Notes under the pieces: model-generated
Seen by the model: the letters and a program-made list of their open reading frames with translations, nothing else
Told to the model about the DNA's origin: nothing
Database searches by the model: none
NCBI GenBank assembly: GCA_020440825.1
Contig: JAGRNJ010000030.1
Span: 1 to 37,541, forward strand
Source of the DNA: Leptospiraceae bacterium
GTDB lineage: Bacteria; Spirochaetota; Leptospiria; Turneriellales; Turneriellaceae
Reading direction: 5' to 3'
DNA: 37,541 bases
Translations under genes and position numbers: made by a program
Shown: piece after piece, positions 9,020 to 37,541 of the stretch
Numbering within the stretch: the first letter of the stretch is position 1
How the letters are laid out: each line of letters opens with the position of its first letter

Positions 9020-10174
9020 TTAATCATCGAATGACAGACCACTTCGCCGGCGAATTTTAACTTTATCGCTACCCTCGAGTTCATCTCTGCTGCCCGAACC
9101 AGCATGCAGGCCCCAGGTGTAGCTCAAGCTCAGGCGAAAGTTGTCACCAATCAGACGCTGGGGAACCCAGGCAAAATTAATAGAATAAGCTTCTGCTCCT
9201 GTATTGTACCGAAATCCGGTACCGACTGTAAAACCACGGGTATCCTGGTTGAATTCATAGCCGGTACGAATCATCAGCATTTCAAAAAAACGCAGTTCAA
9301 GCCCGGTACCAATCACAAAATCGTTGCTCAATACTTTGGTAACATCCAGGGTGAGTAAGCCGTCTTCTCCAATGGTTCGAAAGAAATTGCCGGGACCGCC
9401 CATAAGTTTTACAACATCATTCATAAAAAAGCGATAGGCGGTTCCCGTGCGAAATGTCAGAGGAAGAGGGTCAGATTCATCTATGAAGGCGCCTGCTGCT
9501 CCCAGGTTCAAAATGCTTAAGCCAAAAGTAAAGCCGCGCATAGGGGAGCTTTGCGGCATAATCAAGGCACTGCCCAGGTCAAATGCAAACCCGTTTGAGC
9601 TGTATTGTCCCAGAGACTGGTTAATATACTTTATACCAATCCCGATCGGTAGATTGCGGGTCCACTCATTTGTATCAAACCGGTTTCCATAATATGCCCC
9701 GAATGCAAAATTGCGCGGGGTAAAGGAACCAATTGCATCAGGGGTATCTTCGGTAATCGGTACAGAGCCATAATCTGCATATACAAGAGACGCGCCAAAA
9801 TTACCGGCATCTGCGAAAGGCCCTTTTTTTCCTGATCCTATAAAGTCTGCCCCGATCATCGAGGCATTTACGTTGATCAGTTTTGCGCCTTCCAGAAAGC
9901 CGTCATCAAAACTGTTGAGTTTCATTGTGCTCAATGAAACATCATTGCGGGACACGATTCCCAGAGAGGCCGGGTTCCAGTTTAAACTGGAGGCTTCATC
10001 AATTACTGCAGTCGAGCTTGATCCCATTGAGCTGACTCGCGCATCGGGGATAATTGTTAAAAAATCGGCTGTCGTGGTTCCGGCCCGGGTGGTAGGCCAC
10101 AGTAAGCCGGTACATCCGCCAGCGAATGTAAATACCAGTACTGTTCGATAGAATATGTGTCGAATGTTGTCCAA
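9020..10174 (-). CDS. PorV/PorQ-family outer-membrane beta-barrel protein
   Basis: 384 residues with an N-terminal signal segment (about 1-30) followed by the PorV/PorQ signature region: ADFLTIIPDARVSSMGSSST, then DEASSLNWNPASLG. The rest alternates aromatic and glycine-rich strands typical of an outer-membrane barrel. In Bacteroidota, PorV is a shuttle of the type IX secretion system, but the wider family occurs in many diderms without that system, and no other type IX gene is visible here. The start is a TTG at 10174, preceded by AAGGG seven bases upstream; no ATG occurs before the signature. The C-terminus is charged rather than aromatic, which is unusual for a barrel insertion signal. Confidence 0.8.
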   Translation of the reverse strand: MDNIRHIFYRTVLVFTFAGGCTGLLWPTTRAGTTTADFLTIIPDARVSSMGSSSTAVIDEASSLNWNPASLGIVSRNDVSLSTMKLNSFDDGFLEGAKLINVNASMIGADFIGSGKKGPFADAGNFGASLVYADYGSVPITEDTPDAIGSFTPRNFAFGAYYGNRFDTNEWTRNLPIGIGIKYINQSLGQYSSNGFAFDLGSALIMPQSSPMRGFTFGLSILNLGAAGAFIDESDPLPLTFRTGTAYRFFMNDVVKLMGGPGNFFRTIGEDGLLTLDVTKVLSNDFVIGTGLELRFFEMLMIRTGYEFNQDTRGFTVGTGFRYNTGAEAYSINFAWVPQRLIGDNFRLSLSYTWGLHAGSGSRDELEGSDKVKIRRRSGLSFDD

Positions 10175-27871: not shown

Positions 27872-28789
27872 TTATTTTGTCTGCAAAACCCATTTCTGCA
27901 CAATCGGAAAAATTTCTGAAGCTGCACTTTTCGATGAGAAAAGCATTGCATGATCATAATCGGTACTCAGAAAATTGTCTTCACCAGCAGCGAAATACAG
28001 TTTCTGAGTGGAACGTGAAACTTCTCCATAGGTTTTGAACGTATTGAACCAGGCCTCTGTAGGGGCCAGAGAATCAATTTTCCCACCTATGAAAGCAGCG
28101 GGCAGAGACAGTCGACGCAAAACGGATTTCTGGCTGTCAAAATTCAATTTTGCATTCTGTATATTTCCTGGTTTTAATGATCGTCCTTTTTCTTCTTTTG
28201 ATTGCAGATACAGTGAGCAGAGACTGGTTGCAGAACTGCAGCTTCCTGGCCATTTCTCATTTGTCATTCGCCTTAAAAATGAACCGGGATATTCATAATC
28301 AAATCCTGTTCCCAGAAAAAATACCCGGGAGAGAAAGCGGGTCTCTGCACTTTCTGTCAGAAGAAATTCCAATGCTGCCTGCCCACCGAGAGAGAGGCCG
28401 CCCAGTACAATTCTGCTCCCTCTGGAAAGTTCGCGTACCTCTTTTAATGCTTCAGGCAGGGCCGATGATAAGTCATTTAAGTCTCTGCCTTTTGAGGGAC
28501 GTACCAGAAAAACTGTGAATCCCCGTGAATTGAGCCAGGGAATCAACCGGGTGTGCTCCCCTTCATACAGTTCAGTATCTGTAAAAATCAGCGGCGAGGT
28601 CAATAGTACCACCGGGGTTTCGTCATTTGTATAGTAAGTGATGGGAAAACGAATGAGTTCCGCCTTATCACCGATTCTTATGCCTTGAAAAGTATCTTTA
28701 CTGGTAAAATTGGCAACCGATCCGCAGGCTGTTATCAGTATGACAGCGAATACGGAAACGAGTGTTTTGAGAATACTGTTATGGCTCAT
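27872..28789 (-). CDS. Lipoprotein alpha/beta hydrolase (PHA-synthase/depolymerase-like)
   Basis: 305 residues. The signal peptide ends LITAC (Cys22). The alpha/beta-hydrolase nucleophile elbow is GLSLGGQ, the acid is probably Asp in GGKIDSLAP and the base His in DYDHAML. The PVVLLTSPLIF strand and the overall arrangement resemble lipases and polyhydroxyalkanoate synthase-like hydrolases. Substrate unknown; likely an ester in the envelope. Its start overlaps the end of the preceding hydrolase gene by 11 nt, so the two are co-translated. Confidence 0.8.
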   Translation of the reverse strand: MSHNSILKTLVSVFAVILITACGSVANFTSKDTFQGIRIGDKAELIRFPITYYTNDETPVVLLTSPLIFTDTELYEGEHTRLIPWLNSRGFTVFLVRPSKGRDLNDLSSALPEALKEVRELSRGSRIVLGGLSLGGQAALEFLLTESAETRFLSRVFFLGTGFDYEYPGSFLRRMTNEKWPGSCSSATSLCSLYLQSKEEKGRSLKPGNIQNAKLNFDSQKSVLRRLSLPAAFIGGKIDSLAPTEAWFNTFKTYGEVSRSTQKLYFAAGEDNFLSTDYDHAMLFSSKSAASEIFPIVQKWVLQTK

Positions 28790-29891
28790 CGGTGGTCTCC
28801 TGTTCTGTTGCTTCAGGTTCCACGGGTGGCGGTGGGGTATCCCGTTTATTCAGCCACTCAATGACTTTAGGGTGAACCTCTTTGTGAGCATGCAGACCCA
28901 TCACCATATCTGTATGGCCGTAGTCATCGGTAAATCCCGCTGCCCGTTCGAGCAGCATCAGAGTCTTGTCATCCGAGCCTATTTTGTCCCACGAAGCCCG
29001 TACTGAAGCCGGGTCAGCGAGATGGTCACGTCTGCCGCCAATGGTCAGTACCGGGATTTTAATATTCGGCAGCTCTTCAAAGTACGAGAACCCTCCGCCG
29101 GCAGACACAAGTTCACCGGCATTGAGTGAATAGAGAAACTGTTTTGCTTCTGGTTTGGCGATATCGTTGGTAGCAAACCACATCAGCTTTCTTTCCATCT
29201 GATAACCTGTATTTTCGGGATGGTACAGCATTACCCTGAATTGAGACGGTATAAAAATTGGGGCAAGAGATCCCCATTGAGCGGCCATTTTGATGGGCAC
29301 TGAGGGTATAATGATCATACCGGGTGCAGCGTTGTTCCAGGTCATCAGTACCCGTGAAAGAGGTACAAACACCGTGGGTGACCCATAGGTGACCAGATTG
29401 GCGATGCGATTCTCTTTATAGTGTCCGATTCTGGCATAGGCAACCATGCCTCCCATGCTGTGGCCCATCCAGTTAACTTTTTCTGCCCCGGTCTTTTTCA
29501 AGACAAAACTTAAAGCTGTGTCGACGTCGTCTTTTACATAGTCATCTACATTATAGGTAAATGTCTTATCGCCAAACCACCAGCCAGTATCGCCGGCATC
29601 TCTTCTGCCGCGCAGATCCATAAGCCACACATCATAGCCTGCGCGCTGCAGCATGCTTACCAGGCTTTGTTCTTCTTTTGCTTTCCAGTAATTGCGGTTT
29701 GACAACAGTCCATGGCAGATAATAACCGGGTAGTTGCGCTTTATTTTGGCAATGGGGGGAAAATGCTCAATGGTAAGTTTGAAGCCGTCCCGGGTAACGG
29801 GATGATGTATTGTGCCGTGCTTTTCAAGACTGACACAAGACCAGGCAAACAAAGTGAACAGAAAAAGAATAATGATTTTGAATGTTTTCAT
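28779..29891 (-). CDS. Lipoprotein alpha/beta hydrolase (lipase-like)
   Basis: 370 residues. The signal peptide ends FAWSC (Cys19). The oxyanion strand VIICHGLLSNRNYW, nucleophile elbow GHSMGGM, acid Asp in GGRRDHLAD and base His in DYGHTDMVMG are all in place. The lid region and WLMDLRGR follow the acid lipase (LipA/gastric lipase) pattern. The C-terminus is a proline- and acid-rich tail (about 350-370). Probably an envelope-anchored esterase or lipase. First of a pair with the next hydrolase, and 8 nt after a small outer-membrane protein gene on the same strand. Confidence 0.85.
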   Translation of the reverse strand: MKTFKIIILFLFTLFAWSCVSLEKHGTIHHPVTRDGFKLTIEHFPPIAKIKRNYPVIICHGLLSNRNYWKAKEEQSLVSMLQRAGYDVWLMDLRGRRDAGDTGWWFGDKTFTYNVDDYVKDDVDTALSFVLKKTGAEKVNWMGHSMGGMVAYARIGHYKENRIANLVTYGSPTVFVPLSRVLMTWNNAAPGMIIIPSVPIKMAAQWGSLAPIFIPSQFRVMLYHPENTGYQMERKLMWFATNDIAKPEAKQFLYSLNAGELVSAGGGFSYFEELPNIKIPVLTIGGRRDHLADPASVRASWDKIGSDDKTLMLLERAAGFTDDYGHTDMVMGLHAHKEVHPKVIEWLNKRDTPPPPVEPEATEQETTDEP

Positions 29892-29899
29892 AAGCCCGC

Positions 29900-30469
29900 T
29901 TAAAAATAAAATCCAATATGAATGCTGTGGCCCAGACCGCTCATATCGAGAGGAATCGTCTTGGCATAATGTACCATTGCATATCTCAATTCATATTCGA
30001 TGAAGAATGAACCCCAGAAATAAAAACTTAAACCGGTGTGCAGTGAGGTTCGGGCAAACCAGCCAGATGGAGCATTCGGTAATGTGATGTTGACAAAACC
30101 CGAGTCACCACCAAAATAGAAATCAAACATCGAGCGCGGGAACATATGAATGCTCAGGCCCAGAGCAAGCGGGAAATAAGAAAAACCAGACGGGCTGCTT
30201 GATAGCGGAATCGCCGTCTCGCCGCGAAAACCGAAATAGTTATTTGTGAAGTACTCGAAACGTCCTGAGAGTAATGTTATAGAATTTGCATCACCAGCCT
30301 GCTGAATCCAGGAGCCGGCTGACAATTTAAGATGTTCATCCTGGTAGCCGTCGTGATGTTCTTCGTTGAACTGGTTCCAGCGATCCCGAATTTGCACCTT
30401 GGCCGATAAGCTCGAATGCAAGGTGAGCCCCAGCAGAATTAAGCAGGGCACAATAAATTTTCTGTACAT
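29900..30469 (-). CDS. Small outer-membrane beta-barrel protein
   Basis: 189 residues from the ATG at 30469 (MYRKFIVPC); a TTG at 30502 would add 11 residues of no signal character. A signal peptide ends near SSLSA. About eight amphipathic strands with aromatic residues follow, and the last residue is Phe in a barrel insertion motif (IHIGFYF). The size fits an eight-stranded barrel of the OmpX/OmpA-barrel type. Function unknown. Grouped with two lipoprotein hydrolases downstream, so an envelope lipid or surface role is possible. Confidence 0.75.
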   Translation of the reverse strand: MYRKFIVPCLILLGLTLHSSLSAKVQIRDRWNQFNEEHHDGYQDEHLKLSAGSWIQQAGDANSITLLSGRFEYFTNNYFGFRGETAIPLSSSPSGFSYFPLALGLSIHMFPRSMFDFYFGGDSGFVNITLPNAPSGWFARTSLHTGLSFYFWGSFFIEYELRYAMVHYAKTIPLDMSGLGHSIHIGFYF

Positions 30470-30529
30470 TAAACCAGTTTTCAATGATGACGCAGGCGTC
30501 AATAATTATCTGATTTTTTATGAATTTTC

Positions 30530-31393
30530 TTAGCGCGTAGCTCGCAGATAGCTTGTTATCAGTTGATGCGGAATGCGAGAAAACGTCTGGCAATGAAAAA
30601 AGTCATATAAAGTACTGCCGGTTGAATTATCGTCACTAACGTTCTGTGTGACATGATTTTGCAGATCGTCAAGGTGCACTAGTCTAACCTCGAGAGTGTA
30701 ACGAATCTGTGAGGTGCGGTTAGGTAACGTACAATGCAAATGTGCGGGTGAAAACGCCAACAATTGTCCTGCTGGTAAAGCCGGTCGAATCAAACTGTTA
30801 AAATCTAATGGTTCGGTAACAGAGGGAAACAGTTTGGGATGAGTGCCCAATGATTGAAAGCCGCCCTGTTCACACCAGCGTTCATAATCAAATAATTCAG
30901 AATTATTGGGCACGTATTTCTGCCAGTTATCTGGCAGAATTCCCATCGATGCTTCTTTGGCAACATCAAATACAGGAATCCAAAGATTGATCTGGCAATG
31001 TGGGTTGGCGTACCACATGTCGCGGTGCCAGGTGAACGCCATAGAGGCATCGGGTATATGTTCAAGCCCCGGGGCAATTGCCCGCAAGCGTACAGCATCA
31101 AAATAAAAATCTTGCGGACGTAAATTTAACCCCTCAAGTAAATGCGCAACCCCCGTATAAATACGACGGTCCTTTTTTATGAGGTCTCTTGCCTTTTGTA
31201 TTTTATTGAAAAAATCAGGATGCGCAGAATCTGGGTAGTCAGGCGGATGGCTCACACCTAAAGTCTGGGCAATGGCCTCCCTTGCGGGAGAAAGCCAATT
31301 TTCAAGAAAAGGAATTGTGGCTGCGTACATGTCTCCGCGATGCAGATTTTGCCACTGAGAGTCAGGTTGATTTTGCCATAGCTTAATTATCAT
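30530..31393 (-). CDS. Fe(II)/2-oxoglutarate dioxygenase-like (phytanoyl-CoA dioxygenase type)
   Basis: 287 residues. The metal triad is visible: HxD in FTWHRDMWY (His123, Asp125), a distal His in FSPAHLHCTLPN (about 218-220) and Arg231 in QIRYTLEVRLV as 2-oxoglutarate ligand. The NPHCQINLWIPVFD strand between them fits the double-stranded beta-helix core. Such enzymes hydroxylate or halogenate small molecules or lipids. No biosynthetic partners are adjacent. ATG at 31393. It may head the minus-strand group with the barrel and the hydrolases. Confidence 0.75.
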   Translation of the reverse strand: MIIKLWQNQPDSQWQNLHRGDMYAATIPFLENWLSPAREAIAQTLGVSHPPDYPDSAHPDFFNKIQKARDLIKKDRRIYTGVAHLLEGLNLRPQDFYFDAVRLRAIAPGLEHIPDASMAFTWHRDMWYANPHCQINLWIPVFDVAKEASMGILPDNWQKYVPNNSELFDYERWCEQGGFQSLGTHPKLFPSVTEPLDFNSLIRPALPAGQLLAFSPAHLHCTLPNRTSQIRYTLEVRLVHLDDLQNHVTQNVSDDNSTGSTLYDFFHCQTFSRIPHQLITSYLRATR

Positions 31394-31541
31394 TATTTAA
31401 TAATTGAAGATAATCTCAAAAAAAATGAATTGCCTGGGTTTCGAATCTTGAATGAATCAGTGAATTTATCAAGCACATCGGCCAAAACAGTTTTTAGCAA
31501 ATCTCAAGTAGCTCCCAGTATTTATAGGGAATTGACTTTTG

Positions 31542-31578
31542 GGGCAACCCTTAAAAAACTTAAGTTCTTTCGTTGCCC
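31542..31578. repeat. Inverted repeat in a gene-free gap
   Basis: gggcaac (31542-31548) pairs with gttgccc (31572-31578), with an inner palindrome aacttaagtt (31557-31566). It lies just downstream of the S33 hydrolase gene on the minus strand. On that strand the T-run comes before the stem rather than after it, so it is not a standard intrinsic terminator, though it could still stop transcription or protect the 3' end. The rest of 31394-31603 shows nothing I can name. Confidence 0.45.
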
Positions 31579-31603
31579 TAAAAAATCGTTGATTGCCGCG
31601 CCC

Positions 31604-32644
31604 TTATTGTAAGCCGGCGATCACCTGGGTAGCAACTGCATCAAGCTGGTCTGTAAATACATAATGTCCTGCATTTGCAACTGTAACCACTGTATTGTTT
31701 GCGCTCGAAGGTGTGACAGTCAGTGTATTGCGAATTGAATTGGCCGCAGTGGCCCCAAGCTTCGTATCACAGGAGCCTACAATATAAGTTGCTTCATTGA
31801 CACTGCTTACCGCAGCATTCGAGGCAGTAAAATCATAGTTGTAGGTGACCGAAGGGCCGGTAACAGCGCCGGCCAGCATGCCATTTTCGAGGGTTTTGAT
31901 TACCGCAGCATAACCAAAGCGCCAATAGCGTACTTTTTTATAATCTTCGGCATTGCAGTAGTAGTAAGTCTGGGCCGGTAAAAAGTTTATAAAACGAAAA
32001 TCGAGTTCTGCATGGCTTTCGCCCAGCAGATTTCTTTGCCAGGTATAGTCGCCGGCAGCCGTGTTGAAAATTGAAGTCAGCAGGTCATCAGAGTTGGTAT
32101 TCTTGGCCGGCATTGAAGCGATGAACACAATTTTTGTGACTCTGTTTGGGTAAGATTTCATATAGGCCTGGGCCAATGCCCCCCCCCAGGAATGGGCTAC
32201 AATTTTCATCGTGCCACCATTAAAAAAAGATGCCGATGTGCGTATTGCTTCGAGGTCGGCCACATGACCGGCCACCGATAAAGTCGAATCAGAGGGATCC
32301 AGCCGTTGTGAGAGGCCTCCGCCCCGCTGATCATACAAAACATAGCGATGATTATTGACTGAATCATCGACAAGATTTTTTAAAGGCTCCAGTGCTCTGT
32401 AGTCATAGCCGGGACCGCCGTGCAAAAAGACAATATTGTCGTTTGCCCCCGGAGTGCCAACCGTAGTCATTGATATATGCAGCTTTACCCCATTGATGGT
32501 CGCCGAGGGCAGGGCCGGGTCATCGACTACTGTTTTGGGTACCAAGAAGCCATCTTGAGAAGGGTCATTTCCACAGGCGATTGTGGTCATGATCCCGGCA
32601 AAGGCGAAGGATGTTAACAGATTTCGAATAATATTTTTGTTCAT
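31604..32644 (-). CDS. Lipoprotein alpha/beta hydrolase, proline iminopeptidase (S33)-like
   Basis: 346 residues from the ATG at 32644, chosen for its GGGAG ribosome site; an ATG at 32662 overlaps the previous stop as ATGA and is also possible. The signal peptide ends TTIAC. The S33 features are HGGPGYD (oxyanion), YDQRGGGLSQ and the nucleophile AHSWGGALAQ; the base His is in ANAGHYVF near the C-terminus. The mature protein would sit on the envelope, unlike cytoplasmic proline iminopeptidases, so it may be an amidase or lactonase rather than a peptidase. Last gene of the seven-gene operon. Confidence 0.82.
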   Translation of the reverse strand: MNKNIIRNLLTSFAFAGIMTTIACGNDPSQDGFLVPKTVVDDPALPSATINGVKLHISMTTVGTPGANDNIVFLHGGPGYDYRALEPLKNLVDDSVNNHRYVLYDQRGGGLSQRLDPSDSTLSVAGHVADLEAIRTSASFFNGGTMKIVAHSWGGALAQAYMKSYPNRVTKIVFIASMPAKNTNSDDLLTSIFNTAAGDYTWQRNLLGESHAELDFRFINFLPAQTYYYCNAEDYKKVRYWRFGYAAVIKTLENGMLAGAVTGPSVTYNYDFTASNAAVSSVNEATYIVGSCDTKLGATAANSIRNTLTVTPSSANNTVVTVANAGHYVFTDQLDAVATQVIAGLQ

Positions 32645-32658
32645 AATAATCTCCCAAT

Positions 32659-33363
32659 TCATAATTGGCCCGCTGCATTCGACTGCAGGGCGTTAAAGTA
32701 GTAAGTTGTATGCAGTGATATTACCCCGTCTGTCAGTTGTCTTGTGAGAGGGTTTTTGCTGTCTTCAATGGCCATGGTAAACCACAGTCTCAGGCCCGCT
32801 GCAAAATGGTCAGTGAAACGCCAGTATCCAGAAAGTCCGTAGTTGGCAGTTGCTTCAAAACCTTTTGCATAAAAGCCAGATTGAATTCCCGGAAAGTTGG
32901 CCTTTGCATCATCACTGGGCCCTACATAGGTTGTCATCTTGGGTGCCAAACCCAGGTCAAGGGTAACACTCCACGTAGGGGCAATGTATCCGGCCTGTGC
33001 CTGAAAATCAAGATGCCAGGCAAAACCTGACCAGGCAGGGGTGCGAATTGTATAAATTTTTGTACCGGGACGCAGGTTGAGCCCCCAATTGCCAGAGATT
33101 GGCATTGCCCAGTGACCATGCGCTGAAAAACGATAGGAACCCGGGGTATCGAATATTTTACCGGTAGGTATCGCCACCCCAATATCGATGGGCATTAGAT
33201 CAAATAATTTGGGAGTGACATAGCCGCCTTCAACCACAACGGCGCCATCGAGGCCGATTCCGCCATAGGCCATGTTGCCATCTCCTGCAGGTTGAATGCT
33301 CTGGGCAAAAATCCCTGTGGTAATTAAAGATAGTGCAAGTGCAACTATAGATAGTTTTTTCAT
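32659..33363 (-). CDS. Secreted, probably outer-membrane beta-barrel protein
   Basis: 234 residues. The signal peptide ends near TGIFAQS. The mature part is rich in glycine, aromatics and alternating polar/non-polar strands (WHLDFQAQAGYIAP, ATANYGLSGYWRF, AAGLRLWFTMAI). The last strand (SLHTTYYFNAL) is followed by a short tail, which is unlike a strict terminal-Phe signal. GAGG lies 5 nt before the ATG. No family recognised. It lies between the acyltransferase-cNMP gene (20 nt) and the hydrolase (4-nt overlap), so it belongs to the same operon. Confidence 0.72.
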   Translation of the reverse strand: MKKLSIVALALSLITTGIFAQSIQPAGDGNMAYGGIGLDGAVVVEGGYVTPKLFDLMPIDIGVAIPTGKIFDTPGSYRFSAHGHWAMPISGNWGLNLRPGTKIYTIRTPAWSGFAWHLDFQAQAGYIAPTWSVTLDLGLAPKMTTYVGPSDDAKANFPGIQSGFYAKGFEATANYGLSGYWRFTDHFAAGLRLWFTMAIEDSKNPLTRQLTDGVISLHTTYYFNALQSNAAGQL

Positions 33364-33383
33364 ATGAACCTCATTTCGCTATT

Positions 33384-34502
33384 TTATACAGTAGTATAAC
33401 GGTCTACAAATCTTCTGGCCATCAGTCGAATCAGTTCAAGAAACAGCTGCGCTGTTTCTTTGGGATATTGATCAACCAGTTGCTCAACCTTGTCTGCGGC
33501 AATCATCAGTAATTCAGTGTCTTCTAATGCCCGAATTGTTGACGTACGAGGGCTTCGAACCAGAAAGCCCAACTCACCAAATACATCGCCGGGACCAAGA
33601 ATTCCCAGACTCTGCGGGTTATTCTCAGAACGGTAAAAGATCACTTCAACTGCCCCGCTTAAAACAAGATACATTTCATTGCCCATCTCACCCTGGCGAA
33701 TGACAATGTCATTCTTACGAGACTTTATAACACAACTGGTTTTCAGTTTCTGGGAGAGCTGGTTAAACGTAATGGGCAGGCTCGCCTGGTGGGAGGCAAT
33801 GGAACTCAGCAGACGCTCGGTACCCACTTTCTGTGCGAGTATCGCATCGCCAATATCAGGAAAGGTTGCATGGTACCATTCTTCGACATCCCGGGCATCG
33901 CGGCGCTTACGGGCAAAAATATAGAGCGGAGAGCCCACTTTGCGCAGGTATTCAACATCGGGCAGTATAATCACCATGGGGACTTTATAGCCCAATACTT
34001 CATCGGTAAAATTATCAGTGTACCGTCGAAATCCCAAAGCCTCATAAAATTTAACCAGATGAGGAGAGCAGTCAATAAACACCAGTGGTACAAGATTTCG
34101 GTCACACTGGTGATAGCATTCTTGAATCAGTTTCCAGGCAGCTTTACTGCGCGCGCGGTAGTCTTCGCGAATCAGGAACCGGGAAATGACCATACGGTTA
34201 GTGCCTGTAAATTCTTCGCTGAAAAAATTTGACCGGTATTTACTCAAAACAGACTCTGGAACATTTTCGTCATTGAAGACGAAAAGCCGAATTACGCCGA
34301 TAATTTCACCACTCTCACATCGAATATAATAGTTGAGAGACTGGTCATCAACAGAATCTTTTAATGATTTATTTTGAGAATCGGACCAGGGGAAAACATA
34401 TCCCATTTCTTCGGTATATACTTCATACCGAAACCGGTAAATCTCGGCAAGTTCTTCTTGACTTTCGGCTAAAGTTACTGAACCAAGTTTTAGCGGTTCC
34501 AT
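33384..34502 (-). CDS. Autoinducer-synthase-like GNAT acyltransferase fused to a cyclic-nucleotide-binding domain
   Basis: 372 residues. The N-terminal about 200 residues have a GNAT/acyl-homoserine-lactone-synthase-like (FeeM-type) pattern: EIYRFRYEVYTEEMGYVFPW, a VIRLFVF strand, NRMVISRFLIREDYRAR and HLVKFYEALGFRRY. The C-terminal domain (about 240-365) is a cNMP-binding barrel: NDIVIRQGEMGNEMYLVLSG, then the phosphate cassette FGELGFLVRSPRTSTIRAL. Family members of the first part make N-acyl amino acids or acyl lactones from acyl carrier protein. The fusion suggests acyl transfer gated by cAMP or cGMP. Begins 5 nt after the STAS gene. Confidence 0.8.
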   Translation of the reverse strand: MEPLKLGSVTLAESQEELAEIYRFRYEVYTEEMGYVFPWSDSQNKSLKDSVDDQSLNYYIRCESGEIIGVIRLFVFNDENVPESVLSKYRSNFFSEEFTGTNRMVISRFLIREDYRARSKAAWKLIQECYHQCDRNLVPLVFIDCSPHLVKFYEALGFRRYTDNFTDEVLGYKVPMVIILPDVEYLRKVGSPLYIFARKRRDARDVEEWYHATFPDIGDAILAQKVGTERLLSSIASHQASLPITFNQLSQKLKTSCVIKSRKNDIVIRQGEMGNEMYLVLSGAVEVIFYRSENNPQSLGILGPGDVFGELGFLVRSPRTSTIRALEDTELLMIAADKVEQLVDQYPKETAQLFLELIRLMARRFVDRYTTV

Positions 34503-34507
34503 TGGGT

Positions 34508-34861
34508 TTAATCTTCGAAAGCTACCTGAATATCACTCCATATTTTACTGAAATTGGTAAGTGATTTTTCCTGCCAGGCAACAGTCTTACTGCCAATGAC
34601 CGAAATTTGAGCAGTATTTTTTTTACGCATGTTAATCACAAACATGCTCAAAGTGGTAATACCGGCACTGTTTAGAAATTTCAGGTCTTTGTAATCCATT
34701 TTCAAGGTGTCACCGGCAACAAGTTTATCACCGACATCGGCCAGTAATTTTTTGATGGGTTCATATTCAGAAACCCCCTGCAATCGAATATTGCCAGAGA
34801 ATTTGACAGTCTTGCTTCCCTCATCATAAACTACACTATAATCATTATCTTTAATTTCCAT
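34508..34861 (-). CDS. STAS-like partner-switch protein (slr1659 type)
   Basis: 117 residues. The STAS core is visible: KTVKFSGNIRLQGVSEYEPIKKLL, then LKMDYKDLKFLNSAGITTLSMFVINMRKK. Ser65 in LNSAGITT is where anti-sigma-factor antagonists are phosphorylated. The sequence has the look of the slr1659 family, which travels with slr1658-type ATPases. It should switch between the kinase and another target according to phosphorylation at Ser65. One base separates its start from the stop of the ATPase gene, so the two are made as a pair. Confidence 0.82.
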   Translation of the reverse strand: MEIKDNDYSVVYDEGSKTVKFSGNIRLQGVSEYEPIKKLLADVGDKLVAGDTLKMDYKDLKFLNSAGITTLSMFVINMRKKNTAQISVIGSKTVAWQEKSLTNFSKIWSDIQVAFED

Positions 34862-34862
34862 C

Positions 34863-35420
34863 TTAAACCCCTTCTACAGATATAAATGCTTTTACTGTGA
34901 CACTGGTAGCTTTGCCATCTTCATGATCTTGAAACTTAAATGCCATGCTTACCGGGTAATCTTTCAGTATCATCATCAGGCCAATTCCTGATTGTGTATC
35001 ATTTTCGTCTTTTTCTTCAAGTTTCTTGAAATACAGTTCTTCGAGATCTGAATTCAGCAGAGTATTTGCCAGTTTCTTGAAGTTTTCGCTGACATGGGTG
35101 GTCACATGGTTTGTCACCTGAACCTGCAGCAAATTTGAATAATGCTTCAAAGTCAACAGTACAGGTGAACGCTGTTTTGAGAACTTTGCTGCATTTTCAA
35201 TCAGCTCATTGATCACGGTTGAGAGATTATACAGAATTCTCTCATCTTTTTTACCGGGACTGCTGTATGAATAAAAAGAGCCTATGAAGTCTGCCATTAG
35301 ACCGCATCGTTTCCAGTGGGTTACCAGATCAATAGGATGAAATTCAATTTTTACAACACTCTCGGCTGGTATTGTGTCTGGAATTTTATTGTACTCACCG
35401 AGTATTTCTTCTTTTGCCAT
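34863..35420 (-). CDS. slr1658-type HATPase (anti-sigma/serine kinase-like)
   Basis: 185 residues. An N-box NELIENAAKFS (71-81) and a G-box-like QSGIGLMM (143-150) place it in the GHKL ATPase superfamily, with the sequence character of the slr1658 family. In place of a plain DxGxG there is VTNHVTTHV (about 102-110), so the first glycine box is atypical and ATP use should be tested. Predicted to phosphorylate or sequester the STAS partner. 14 nt after the phosphatase gene. Confidence 0.82.
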   Translation of the reverse strand: MAKEEILGEYNKIPDTIPAESVVKIEFHPIDLVTHWKRCGLMADFIGSFYSYSSPGKKDERILYNLSTVINELIENAAKFSKQRSPVLLTLKHYSNLLQVQVTNHVTTHVSENFKKLANTLLNSDLEELYFKKLEEKDENDTQSGIGLMMILKDYPVSMAFKFQDHEDGKATSVTVKAFISVEGV

Positions 35421-35434
35421 ATAGTCTCCGTTTG

Positions 35435-36910
35435 TTACTTACGTCTTAGTACGAGCAGGGTAATATCATCATATAAGGGAACTCCTGCCTGCCATTTGAT
35501 GATATCTGCTTTGATCGCCGTTACAATATCCTGTACCGGTTTTTCTCTGTTTTTTAAGAAAGTTTCTGCCAGTCGAACTTCTGAATACTGTTCCCCGGCA
35601 GGGTTTTCAGCCTCTGTGGCCCCGTCGGTAAACAGTAAAATCTGGTCTCCCGACTCAATTTGCAGGGTCATTGAGTTGATGGTATGAGAAATATCTTCGA
35701 GTAGTCCCACATAAATACCAAGGTCACGGGTGTCGTGAATTTCCAGGGTGCCACTCTTGCGAATAAGAATGACTTTTTCATGTTGACCGCAAATATCTAC
35801 CCGGCCTTTTTCATGGCGCAGCAGACATAGAGTCATGTTTCGGGTATCTTGCAGACGTCCCTGTATGTTTTTATACAGTAGAGCATTTAACTGGGCAAGG
35901 GCATGCTCCAACTTGGGTTCGGGTTCTTCTAGCAGAATACGAAATGCAGATTGAACCATCAGCATTACCACACCCGATGCCAACCCATGATCGGTCACAT
36001 CGCCAACCCCGATATAGGTTCTGTCTTCTTTGGTGAGAACATCGTAGTAGTCACCGCCAACTTCGCTTGCAGGCTGCATAGTTGCACCGATTTCAAGTTC
36101 AGTACATGCATTTAATTCTTCAGGGCGGGGCAAGACCATCATCTGTAATTTTTGTGCGACCTGCAATTCAGCTCCCATTCTCATGTTTTCAACTTCAAGT
36201 TTGCGCTTCTGGTCGCCGGCATCCCGAATTCGAGCCACAACCCGGGGAATCACTTTGAGCATGTTGCCGATTACCCCGCTCTCAGAAAATGCGACCAAAA
36301 CACTGATCAGCATCATGAGCCCCCATAGAATCACAAACTGCATGATTGTCTTGGGGGGTAACGGATGGCCATACCCTTCTGGTGCGGTCAGAATATAAGT
36401 GAAATCAAGGCCTATACGAGTGGCCAGAAAATACATATTGGCAAAAGCAAACAATCCATAGACCAGCGCAGCCCACCGGTTAAGCATCACGCCGGTGATA
36501 AAGATCATTATGATTGAGATGGTAACATCCCAGAGAAAACTGAGGGCAAGGTTGGTATTCGATTGAACCGCAGCAATCGAAACCAGCTGTAGCATGATTA
36601 TGGTAAGCCAGGTGAAGGTTTTGACGAGCCTAGGGTTTCCGCTGCTGCCCTTGACTTGATGATACAGGTTATAGAATCCGGAGGTGAGCATAATCGACAG
36701 CAGCATCGGGTACATGATCCAGTCACGACCGGGATTATTCAAATTTCCATTTTTGACAATAGTTACTACGTTGAAAATCAAAACCGGAATCCCGATTATG
36801 AAGTTGAAAATAATCAACAATCGTATCTTGACATTTTTGCTGGGGGCAACCAGCATTTCTTCGGCTTCTGCGAGCAGGTCGCGGCCGGTGGCTTTCTCTT
36901 CTGTTTTCAT
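35435..36910 (-). CDS. Membrane SpoIIE-type serine phosphatase
   Basis: 491 residues. About six to seven membrane segments (about 30-215) form a sensor region of unknown ligand. A coiled-coil linker (about 224-258) joins the PP2C-like SpoIIE domain (about 270-490). Metal-binding motifs are EVGGDYYD (Asp287), GVGDVTDHG (Asp304), LFTDGATEA (about 426-434) and YDDITLLVL (about 480-488). All acidic ligands are present, so it should be active. It should dephosphorylate the STAS protein two genes downstream in response to a membrane signal. Confidence 0.9.
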   Translation of the reverse strand: MKTEEKATGRDLLAEAEEMLVAPSKNVKIRLLIIFNFIIGIPVLIFNVVTIVKNGNLNNPGRDWIMYPMLLSIMLTSGFYNLYHQVKGSSGNPRLVKTFTWLTIIMLQLVSIAAVQSNTNLALSFLWDVTISIIMIFITGVMLNRWAALVYGLFAFANMYFLATRIGLDFTYILTAPEGYGHPLPPKTIMQFVILWGLMMLISVLVAFSESGVIGNMLKVIPRVVARIRDAGDQKRKLEVENMRMGAELQVAQKLQMMVLPRPEELNACTELEIGATMQPASEVGGDYYDVLTKEDRTYIGVGDVTDHGLASGVVMLMVQSAFRILLEEPEPKLEHALAQLNALLYKNIQGRLQDTRNMTLCLLRHEKGRVDICGQHEKVILIRKSGTLEIHDTRDLGIYVGLLEDISHTINSMTLQIESGDQILLFTDGATEAENPAGEQYSEVRLAETFLKNREKPVQDIVTAIKADIIKWQAGVPLYDDITLLVLRRK

Positions 36911-36913
36911 AAT

Positions 36914-37541
36914 TTATTTTTTGCGGTATGCTTGAAAAATTACTGAAATTTCACAAAAATTCTCAGCAGATGACATGTAATCGCGATGTGCAGTATCATA
37001 GACATCTGCCACTTCTGATCGTTGTCCCATGAAGGCAAACATACTCCAGAAGGTCATTTTTCCCAGGTGAATGTTGGGATATTCGATCACCGGAGAGTCT
37101 TCTTTGCCACGATTATCAACATAGACAAAATCTTCAGCAATTTGTTCAAAACCTGTCGATTCTGCTATTGGCTTCAGTTTCGACATGATTGTTCTGTCAG
37201 CTTCGTATATTTCAAGGTGTTTCTTAACAAGTTCTGTCATGGTCGCAGTACCTTTAAAAGTCGAGTCATCAACATCGAGAACAAAAAAGATACTGCCGGG
37301 TTTCAATATCCGGTTAATCTCTTCGAGGGCTTTCTTGGGCTCTCGCAGGTGAATAAACAGGAAGCTGGCCTGAGCAACATCGTAAGATGCGTCTTCAACC
37401 GGGATTTTATAGACACTGCCGATTTTCCAGTCGATATCGGGGTAGTTCATCTTGGCATACTGGTGCAGATCTTCTGCAAGTTCAACGCCGGTAAAGCTAA
37501 ACCCCGGAAAAAGTTTTCGCACTAGAGAAAAATGAACCCCC
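36914..37541 (-). CDS. Class I SAM-dependent methyltransferase, 5' end outside the window
   Basis: At least 209 residues visible; the frame stays open to the end of the window, so the N-terminus is missing. The visible GTG at 37522 is internal, since GVHFSLVRKLFPG just upstream is the end of motif I. Motif II region FTGVELAEDLHQYA, then the methyltransferase loop PVEDASYDVAQASFLFIHL and motif III ALEEINRILKPGSIFFVLD follow. Substrate unknown. It stops 3 nt before the SpoIIE gene starts, so it is the known first member of the operon. Confidence 0.85.
   Translation of the reverse strand, partial: GVHFSLVRKLFPGFSFTGVELAEDLHQYAKMNYPDIDWKIGSVYKIPVEDASYDVAQASFLFIHLREPKKALEEINRILKPGSIFFVLDVDDSTFKGTATMTELVKKHLEIYEADRTIMSKLKPIAESTGFEQIAEDFVYVDNRGKEDSPVIEYPNIHLGKMTFWSMFAFMGQRSEVADVYDTAHRDYMSSAENFCEISVIFQAYRKK

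Follow-up and report, generated by a model that had tools for sequence, protein, structure and literature searches.

What does a partner switch control when its three genes share an operon with a predicted acyltransferase, a methyltransferase and two putative surface proteins? The question is raised by a seven-gene run at one end of a 37,541-nt stretch of Leptospiraceae bacterium (Turneriellaceae; GenBank assembly GCA_020440825.1, contig JAGRNJ010000030.1). This stretch, here called the window, is the entire contig C97 of a 173-contig, 3.8 Mb draft genome (G000). The answer that we favor, tentatively, is that the switch would act on a nucleotide cyclase, whose cyclic nucleotide would in turn switch the acyltransferase on; the methyltransferase would then complete a methylated acyl product. 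The seven minus-strand genes are spaced by 3, 14, 1, 5 and 20 nt, with a single 4-nt overlap; the open reading frames, strands and coordinates agree with an earlier description of the window made from its letters alone (the sequence-only reading). The features of the locus are as follows:

36914..37541, minus strand: class I S-adenosylmethionine-dependent methyltransferase, the first operon gene in Turneriella sp. Bin_83R (G007); Methyltransf_11 3e-13; 5' end cut by the contig end
35435..36910, minus strand: membrane SpoIIE/PP2C phosphatase, 491 aa; PF07228 1e-34, 120 bits; metal-binding motifs intact
34863..35420, minus strand: slr1658-superfamily switch kinase (BgrW/SiaB-like HATPase); NF047703 157.5 bits
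34508..34861, minus strand: slr1659-superfamily STAS protein (BgrV-like) with predicted phosphosite Ser65; NF047705 127 bits
33384..34502, minus strand: FeeM/autoinducer-synthase-like GNAT acyltransferase with a C-terminal cyclic-nucleotide-binding (cNMP) domain; FeeM PF21926 31.6 bits, cNMP_binding 84 bits
32659..33363, minus strand: small signal-peptide protein, probable outer-membrane beta-barrel; beta-rich low-confidence model
31604..32662, minus strand: exported lipoprotein-like alpha/beta hydrolase (prolyl-aminopeptidase-like), last operon gene; Abhydrolase_1 9e-16; AHSWGG nucleophile motif
31525..31605, minus strand: weak hairpin, possible transcript end; fold -20.1 kcal/mol, z -1.4

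The seven genes form one unit, beyond chance. In G007, which belongs to another genus of Turneriellaceae (loci L036 and L042), all seven are present with order and strand kept, at 62-72% identity per gene pair. Beyond the seven, the window and the G007 loci have no syntenic gene in common and their flanks are unrelated, so the recurrence of the order in a second genus indicates that the operon is real as a unit. A third family member (G009) carries the methyltransferase, SpoIIE and slr1658 genes before its contig ends, and together these two genomes bear out the operon that had been proposed from the letters. Its distribution is sporadic: slr1659 scores above the cut-off in 4 of 61 relatives and in 8 of 393 Spirochaetota genomes, and strong acyltransferase matches occur in 4 of the 393. 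Gene order in relatives had been put forward as the check on the operon, and the outcome is divided, as most relatives are without the genes altogether, yet the order is kept wherever a full acyltransferase-cNMP gene accompanies the trio of switch genes. Weak acyltransferase matches in G023, G046 and G072 were dismissed as simple or other GNATs in unrelated contexts. Orphan slr1659-type STAS genes with neither kinase nor phosphatase neighbours are found in other spirochaetes (L094, L095, L096 and L098).

Judged by sequence, the SpoIIE, slr1658 and slr1659 genes encode a partner-switching core of PP2C phosphatase, HATPase kinase and STAS protein, and Pfam and NCBIfam profiles confirm the names that the sequence-only reading had given them. 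The phosphatase carries the motifs GGDYYD (285), GDVTDHG (303), DGATEA (429) and DDITL (481), with four hydrophobic stretches ahead of the phosphatase domain, while the N-box (NELIENA) and the SGIGL glycine box of the kinase are both intact. Kinase and STAS protein exceed the superfamily cut-offs of NF047703 and NF047705, which are 100 bits each. Ser65, already singled out on the STAS protein, is present and is kept in 18 of 18 aligned slr1659-type proteins. A family of ~330-aa proteins, 46% identical to each other, precedes SpoIIE-slr1658-slr1659 in G255 (L091 5646-6638) and G040 (L038 14034-15041); they are not acyltransferase-like by profile comparison and match no family above cut-off. In G039 (L039 10319-13334), a gene for a 216-aa GNAT lies between SpoIIE and slr1658, but it was not counted as support, having no detectable profile relation to the window acyltransferase.

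The acyltransferase-cNMP protein (ACYLTRANSFERASE) and the methyltransferase (METHYLTRANSFERASE) are best regarded as one functional unit because they are fused in G020 and G026, where a single polypeptide of ~665 residues comprises a FeeM-type acyltransferase, a cNMP domain and a methyltransferase. The suspicion, voiced from the window alone, that the two are functionally joined is thereby upheld. The fused methyltransferase is related to that of the operon (hhalign E 3.5e-23), and the best methyltransferase match was an operon-linked or fused copy in all five genomes tested. A SpoIIE gene belonging to the same subfamily as that of the window lies divergently from the G020 fusion (1e-63, against 3e-28 for that genome's next SpoIIE). 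Both fusions have FeeM as their best GNAT model; the window acyltransferase passes the FeeM cut-off of 27 bits, but Acetyltransf_10 scores higher (37.5). Matches of the window acyltransferase to acyl-homoserine lactone synthases in the PDB are weak (E 0.007-0.7), and it falls below the cut-off of the exosortase-associated model TIGR03694 (49.3 vs 112 bits). A Foldseek search with its AlphaFold model (mean predicted local distance difference test score, pLDDT, 77) gave matches dominated by the cNMP domain, which carries an FGELGF...PRTST phosphate-binding cassette. The FeeM similarity and the methyltransferase fusion suggest, as the product class, an N-acyl amino acid or similar compound that is methylated. 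The window methyltransferase is without ~65 N-terminal residues of its 271-aa full-length homologue at G007 locus L036.

In spirochaetes as well as in rhizobia, the gene that most often accompanies the trio is that of the methyltransferase. It directly precedes SpoIIE in the window, in G007, G009, G208, G125, G129 and G061 and in rhizobia, and in G020 a methyltransferase adjoins slr1659. Four of the seven complete Spirochaetota trios, counted as one locus per genus or family, have it, for which a post hoc test at an assumed 2% gene background gives a probability of ~5e-6. Distribution beyond Spirochaetota was drawn from plasmid records, and there the rhizobial methyltransferase is fused to an N-terminal STAS-like domain (hhalign 97.9%, E 4e-13); this fusion and rhizobial slr1659 occur in nearly the same records, 120 each. 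The STAS-like domain has no phosphorylatable serine and an extra rhizobial slr1658 kinase copy has lost its ATP-binding residues; degenerate kinase and fusion are apparently a phosphorylation-dead second switch pair. The two genes stand in this order at L077 4352-6054, L078 4324-6065 and L079 4418-6072.

A cyclase is the other recurrent neighbour. A gene for a class III nucleotide cyclase is divergent from the methyltransferase gene in G007 (103 nt apart) and G009, its orthologue comes directly after slr1659 in G208 and convergently just after slr1659 in G255, and the G026 fusion stands head-to-head with a class III cyclase. In G125, G129 and G061 the corresponding position is filled by a diguanylate cyclase instead of the class III enzyme. 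The orthologue of the window's own genome, 75% identical to that of G007, is on contig C155, with its 5' end ~113 nt from the contig end, and is oriented as would be predicted if C155 and the window were adjoining. Across the draft genome as a whole there are 33 SpoIIE-type phosphatase and 29 class III cyclase matches. Whether class III or GGDEF enzymes, the trio-linked cyclases share a segment immediately N-terminal to the catalytic domain (LYETTLEHSTEIENEL, LYISTVEYASTIENDL), and the stretch of the cyclase N-terminal part given by ETTLEHSTEIENEL is a candidate for the STAS contact. A LYETTLEHSTEIENEL-like motif is present in five class III and three GGDEF trio-linked cyclases, with two copies per GGDEF protein; it was absent from all nine other cyclase-type proteins in the fetched loci and from all 20 shuffles, and a match was seen in neither the acyltransferase nor the methyltransferase.

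Known switches provide a precedent for such an effector. The rhizobial megaplasmid operon (GGDEF-EAL, degenerate slr1658, STAS-like-methyltransferase fusion, SpoIIE, slr1658, slr1659), found at one place each in Sinorhizobium meliloti 1021 pSymB and ml21, matches BgrRSTUWV, Bgr names having been given to loci by gene order and family. According to two reports (PMC7647112, PMC8457831), the phosphorylation state of BgrV is governed by BgrU and BgrW, which in this way control how active the diguanylate cyclase BgrR is. The window resembles Bgr in its kinase and STAS protein, which belong to the same NCBIfam superfamilies (Bgr scores 169 and 139 bits), in a similar SpoIIE (~1e-63), and in the order methyltransferase-SpoIIE-kinase-STAS. 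The two differ in that the Bgr effector is a GGDEF-EAL protein, whereas none of the window's seven genes encodes GGDEF and relatives have a class III cyclase. The degenerate second kinase and the STAS-methyltransferase fusion of Bgr are absent from the window and G007, and the acyltransferase-cNMP, outer-membrane and hydrolase genes belong to the window.

The SiaABCD system of Pseudomonas aeruginosa has the same logic of PP2C phosphatase, HATPase kinase, STAS-fold target and cyclase, and the SiaD stalk has a repeated STAS-docking motif (PMC8457831). SiaC uses the part of its chain surrounding T68 to grip the two repeated motifs in this helical stalk, and it no longer binds SiaD once T68 is phosphorylated (PMC8457831). 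The motif of the trio-linked cyclases may be analogous to those of the SiaD stalk, the segments being unlike in sequence. At the family level the systems are apart, as the window kinase scores 21.4 bits against a cut-off of 85 for SiaB NF038262 and the window STAS protein has no DUF1987 (SiaC) match in the Pfam search. Synechocystis slr1658 and slr1659 gave both superfamilies their names; the window pair is above the superfamily cut-offs, but its kinase is below that of the slr1658_cyano equivalog (102 vs 200). Among cyanobacteria a single plasmid locus was examined; SulP transporters are present there and a methyltransferase is not. In Kovacikia minuta (L076 5558-10874), slr1658-slr1659 lies among SulP-like transporters, one of which has STAS-like and cNMP-like parts. 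As for FeeM and LuxI-type synthases, the putative acyltransferase of the window is above the PF21926 gathering score, though outscored there by Acetyltransf_10, and it adds a cNMP domain and a methyltransferase partner.

Because of the neighbouring class III or diguanylate cyclases, the shared motif and the Bgr/Sia precedent, we take the cyclase to be the likeliest switch effector. The scheme that results draws on observed gene content, order, fusions, cyclase linkage and motifs, and each of its steps is our inference. A membrane signal would act on the SpoIIE phosphatase, which would remove the phosphate from Ser65 of the STAS protein, and the slr1658-type kinase would put it back. Unphosphorylated STAS protein would engage and activate the neighbouring class III cyclase, possibly via the conserved segment that precedes its catalytic domain. 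The cyclic nucleotide would bind the C-terminal sensor of the acyltransferase and turn the enzyme on, and acyltransferase and methyltransferase would constitute one pathway to an N-acyl, methylated small molecule, e.g., an N-acyl amino acid methyl ester. The outer-membrane protein and the exported hydrolase might act on the product's passage or removal, although a role for them in export or degradation is guesswork. The most specific version, in which the STAS switch would drive the class III cyclase by way of a docking motif that diguanylate cyclases also have, the cyclic nucleotide would gate the acyltransferase and the conserved methyltransferase would methylate the product, is unlikely to be right in every one of its parts.

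Several points weigh against the cyclase relay. There is no sequence overlap between C97 and C155, so the cyclase gene of the window's genome is only putatively next to the operon. G026 has the fusion but no slr1659 at E <= 1e-12, which implies that acyltransferase and methyltransferase do not need this switch, and the G020 fusion adjoins a SpoIIE gene and not a cyclase gene, which also fits direct control by the switch. Within the GNAT clan, the closest Pfam family of the acyltransferase is ambiguous. The cyclase motif was defined post hoc from a small set of sequences and might represent a generic signalling helix; visual inspection of rhizobial BgrR N-termini did not reveal it, and a search with the stalk of the trio-linked diguanylate cyclases did not find SiaD or any similarity to it. 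Finally, the nucleotide may be either cyclic AMP or cyclic GMP: the K and D residues of the cyclase hint at an adenylate cyclase, whereas the Thr after the phosphate-binding Arg of the sensor (PRTST) resembles cyclic GMP-binding sites.

The alternative that survives best is the one closest to the sequence-only reading, which had the switch control an acylated-molecule pathway directly. Here the STAS protein or the kinase would bind the acyltransferase-cNMP protein, the methyltransferase or both, and the cyclic nucleotide would be an independent second input. In both genera the acyltransferase gene is indeed the next one after that for the STAS protein, the methyltransferase adjoins the trio even in G020, where no cyclase was recognised nearby, the rhizobial methyltransferase carries a fused STAS-like domain, and the SpoIIE next to the G020 fusion is of the same subfamily (1e-63 vs 3e-28). 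However, the non-sigma outputs that we found for related switches (Bgr, Hsb and Sia) are cyclases, and the motif sits in cyclases, with none detected in either the acyltransferase or the methyltransferase. Direct control is thus possible though rather doubtful, and the comparative evidence supports it less than the relay through a cyclase.

Control of transcription through an unlinked sigma factor or regulator, with the operon only one of several targets, would follow the classical SpoIIAB/RsbW paradigm. In Synechocystis, pgr5 is expressed differently when slr1658 is lost (PMC7555055), but no sigma factor or DNA-binding regulator is conserved in any trio operon examined and the effectors are enzymes, which makes this explanation improbable. 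It is quite unlikely, too, that the acyltransferase modifies proteins rather than small molecules, as a cyclic-nucleotide-gated lysine acetyltransferase like mycobacterial Pat: Pat likewise combines cNMP and GNAT domains and Acetyltransf_10 scores slightly above FeeM for the window protein, but the domain order is opposite to that of Pat, the Pat model covers only the cNMP part (27 bits vs a cut-off of 460), FeeM scores highest among the GNAT models in both fusions, and the fusion partner is a small-molecule-type methyltransferase.

To return to the relay through a cyclase, the locus would be a switch of the Bgr/Sia type that uses another second messenger and acts on other downstream enzymes. 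We found no paper joining these parts in the open-access literature, most subscription journals being outside its coverage. The comparison suggests that a single switch core can be combined with different cyclases, for cyclic di-GMP or cyclic mononucleotides, and with different downstream enzymes; it offers a putative docking motif that can be tested, and it gives the methyltransferase a place in partner switches that we did not find described. A 2024 paper reports that candidate synthase genes for methylated N-acyl signals had yet to be identified (PMC11580390). The acyltransferase-cNMP-methyltransferase fusion is a candidate for such a synthase, and the relay, if true, would also supply candidate genes for molecules of the N-acyl amino acid methyl ester type.

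The two remaining operon genes can be described briefly. The outer-membrane protein gave zero matches in Pfam and NCBIfam searches and is 65% identical to its G007 counterpart; an AlphaFold model built from two sequences was uninformative (pLDDT 36). The hydrolase scores 64 bits against TIGR01250, below the cut-off of 168. It may start at a second Met, which has GGGAG ahead of it, and the 4-nt overlap would then become a short gap. A terminator scan gave no strong site 3' of this last gene and did not pick up the hairpin at 31525..31605.

Elsewhere in the window, a weak PorV-like match lies at 9020-10174 (24.8 bits vs a cut-off of 27). Just 3' of the operon, at 27872-31393, there is a second minus-strand cluster that is not common to the G007 locus; it encodes a PhyH-like dioxygenase, a small signal-peptide protein and an alpha/beta hydrolase with weak similarity to polyhydroxyalkanoate (PHA) synthase.

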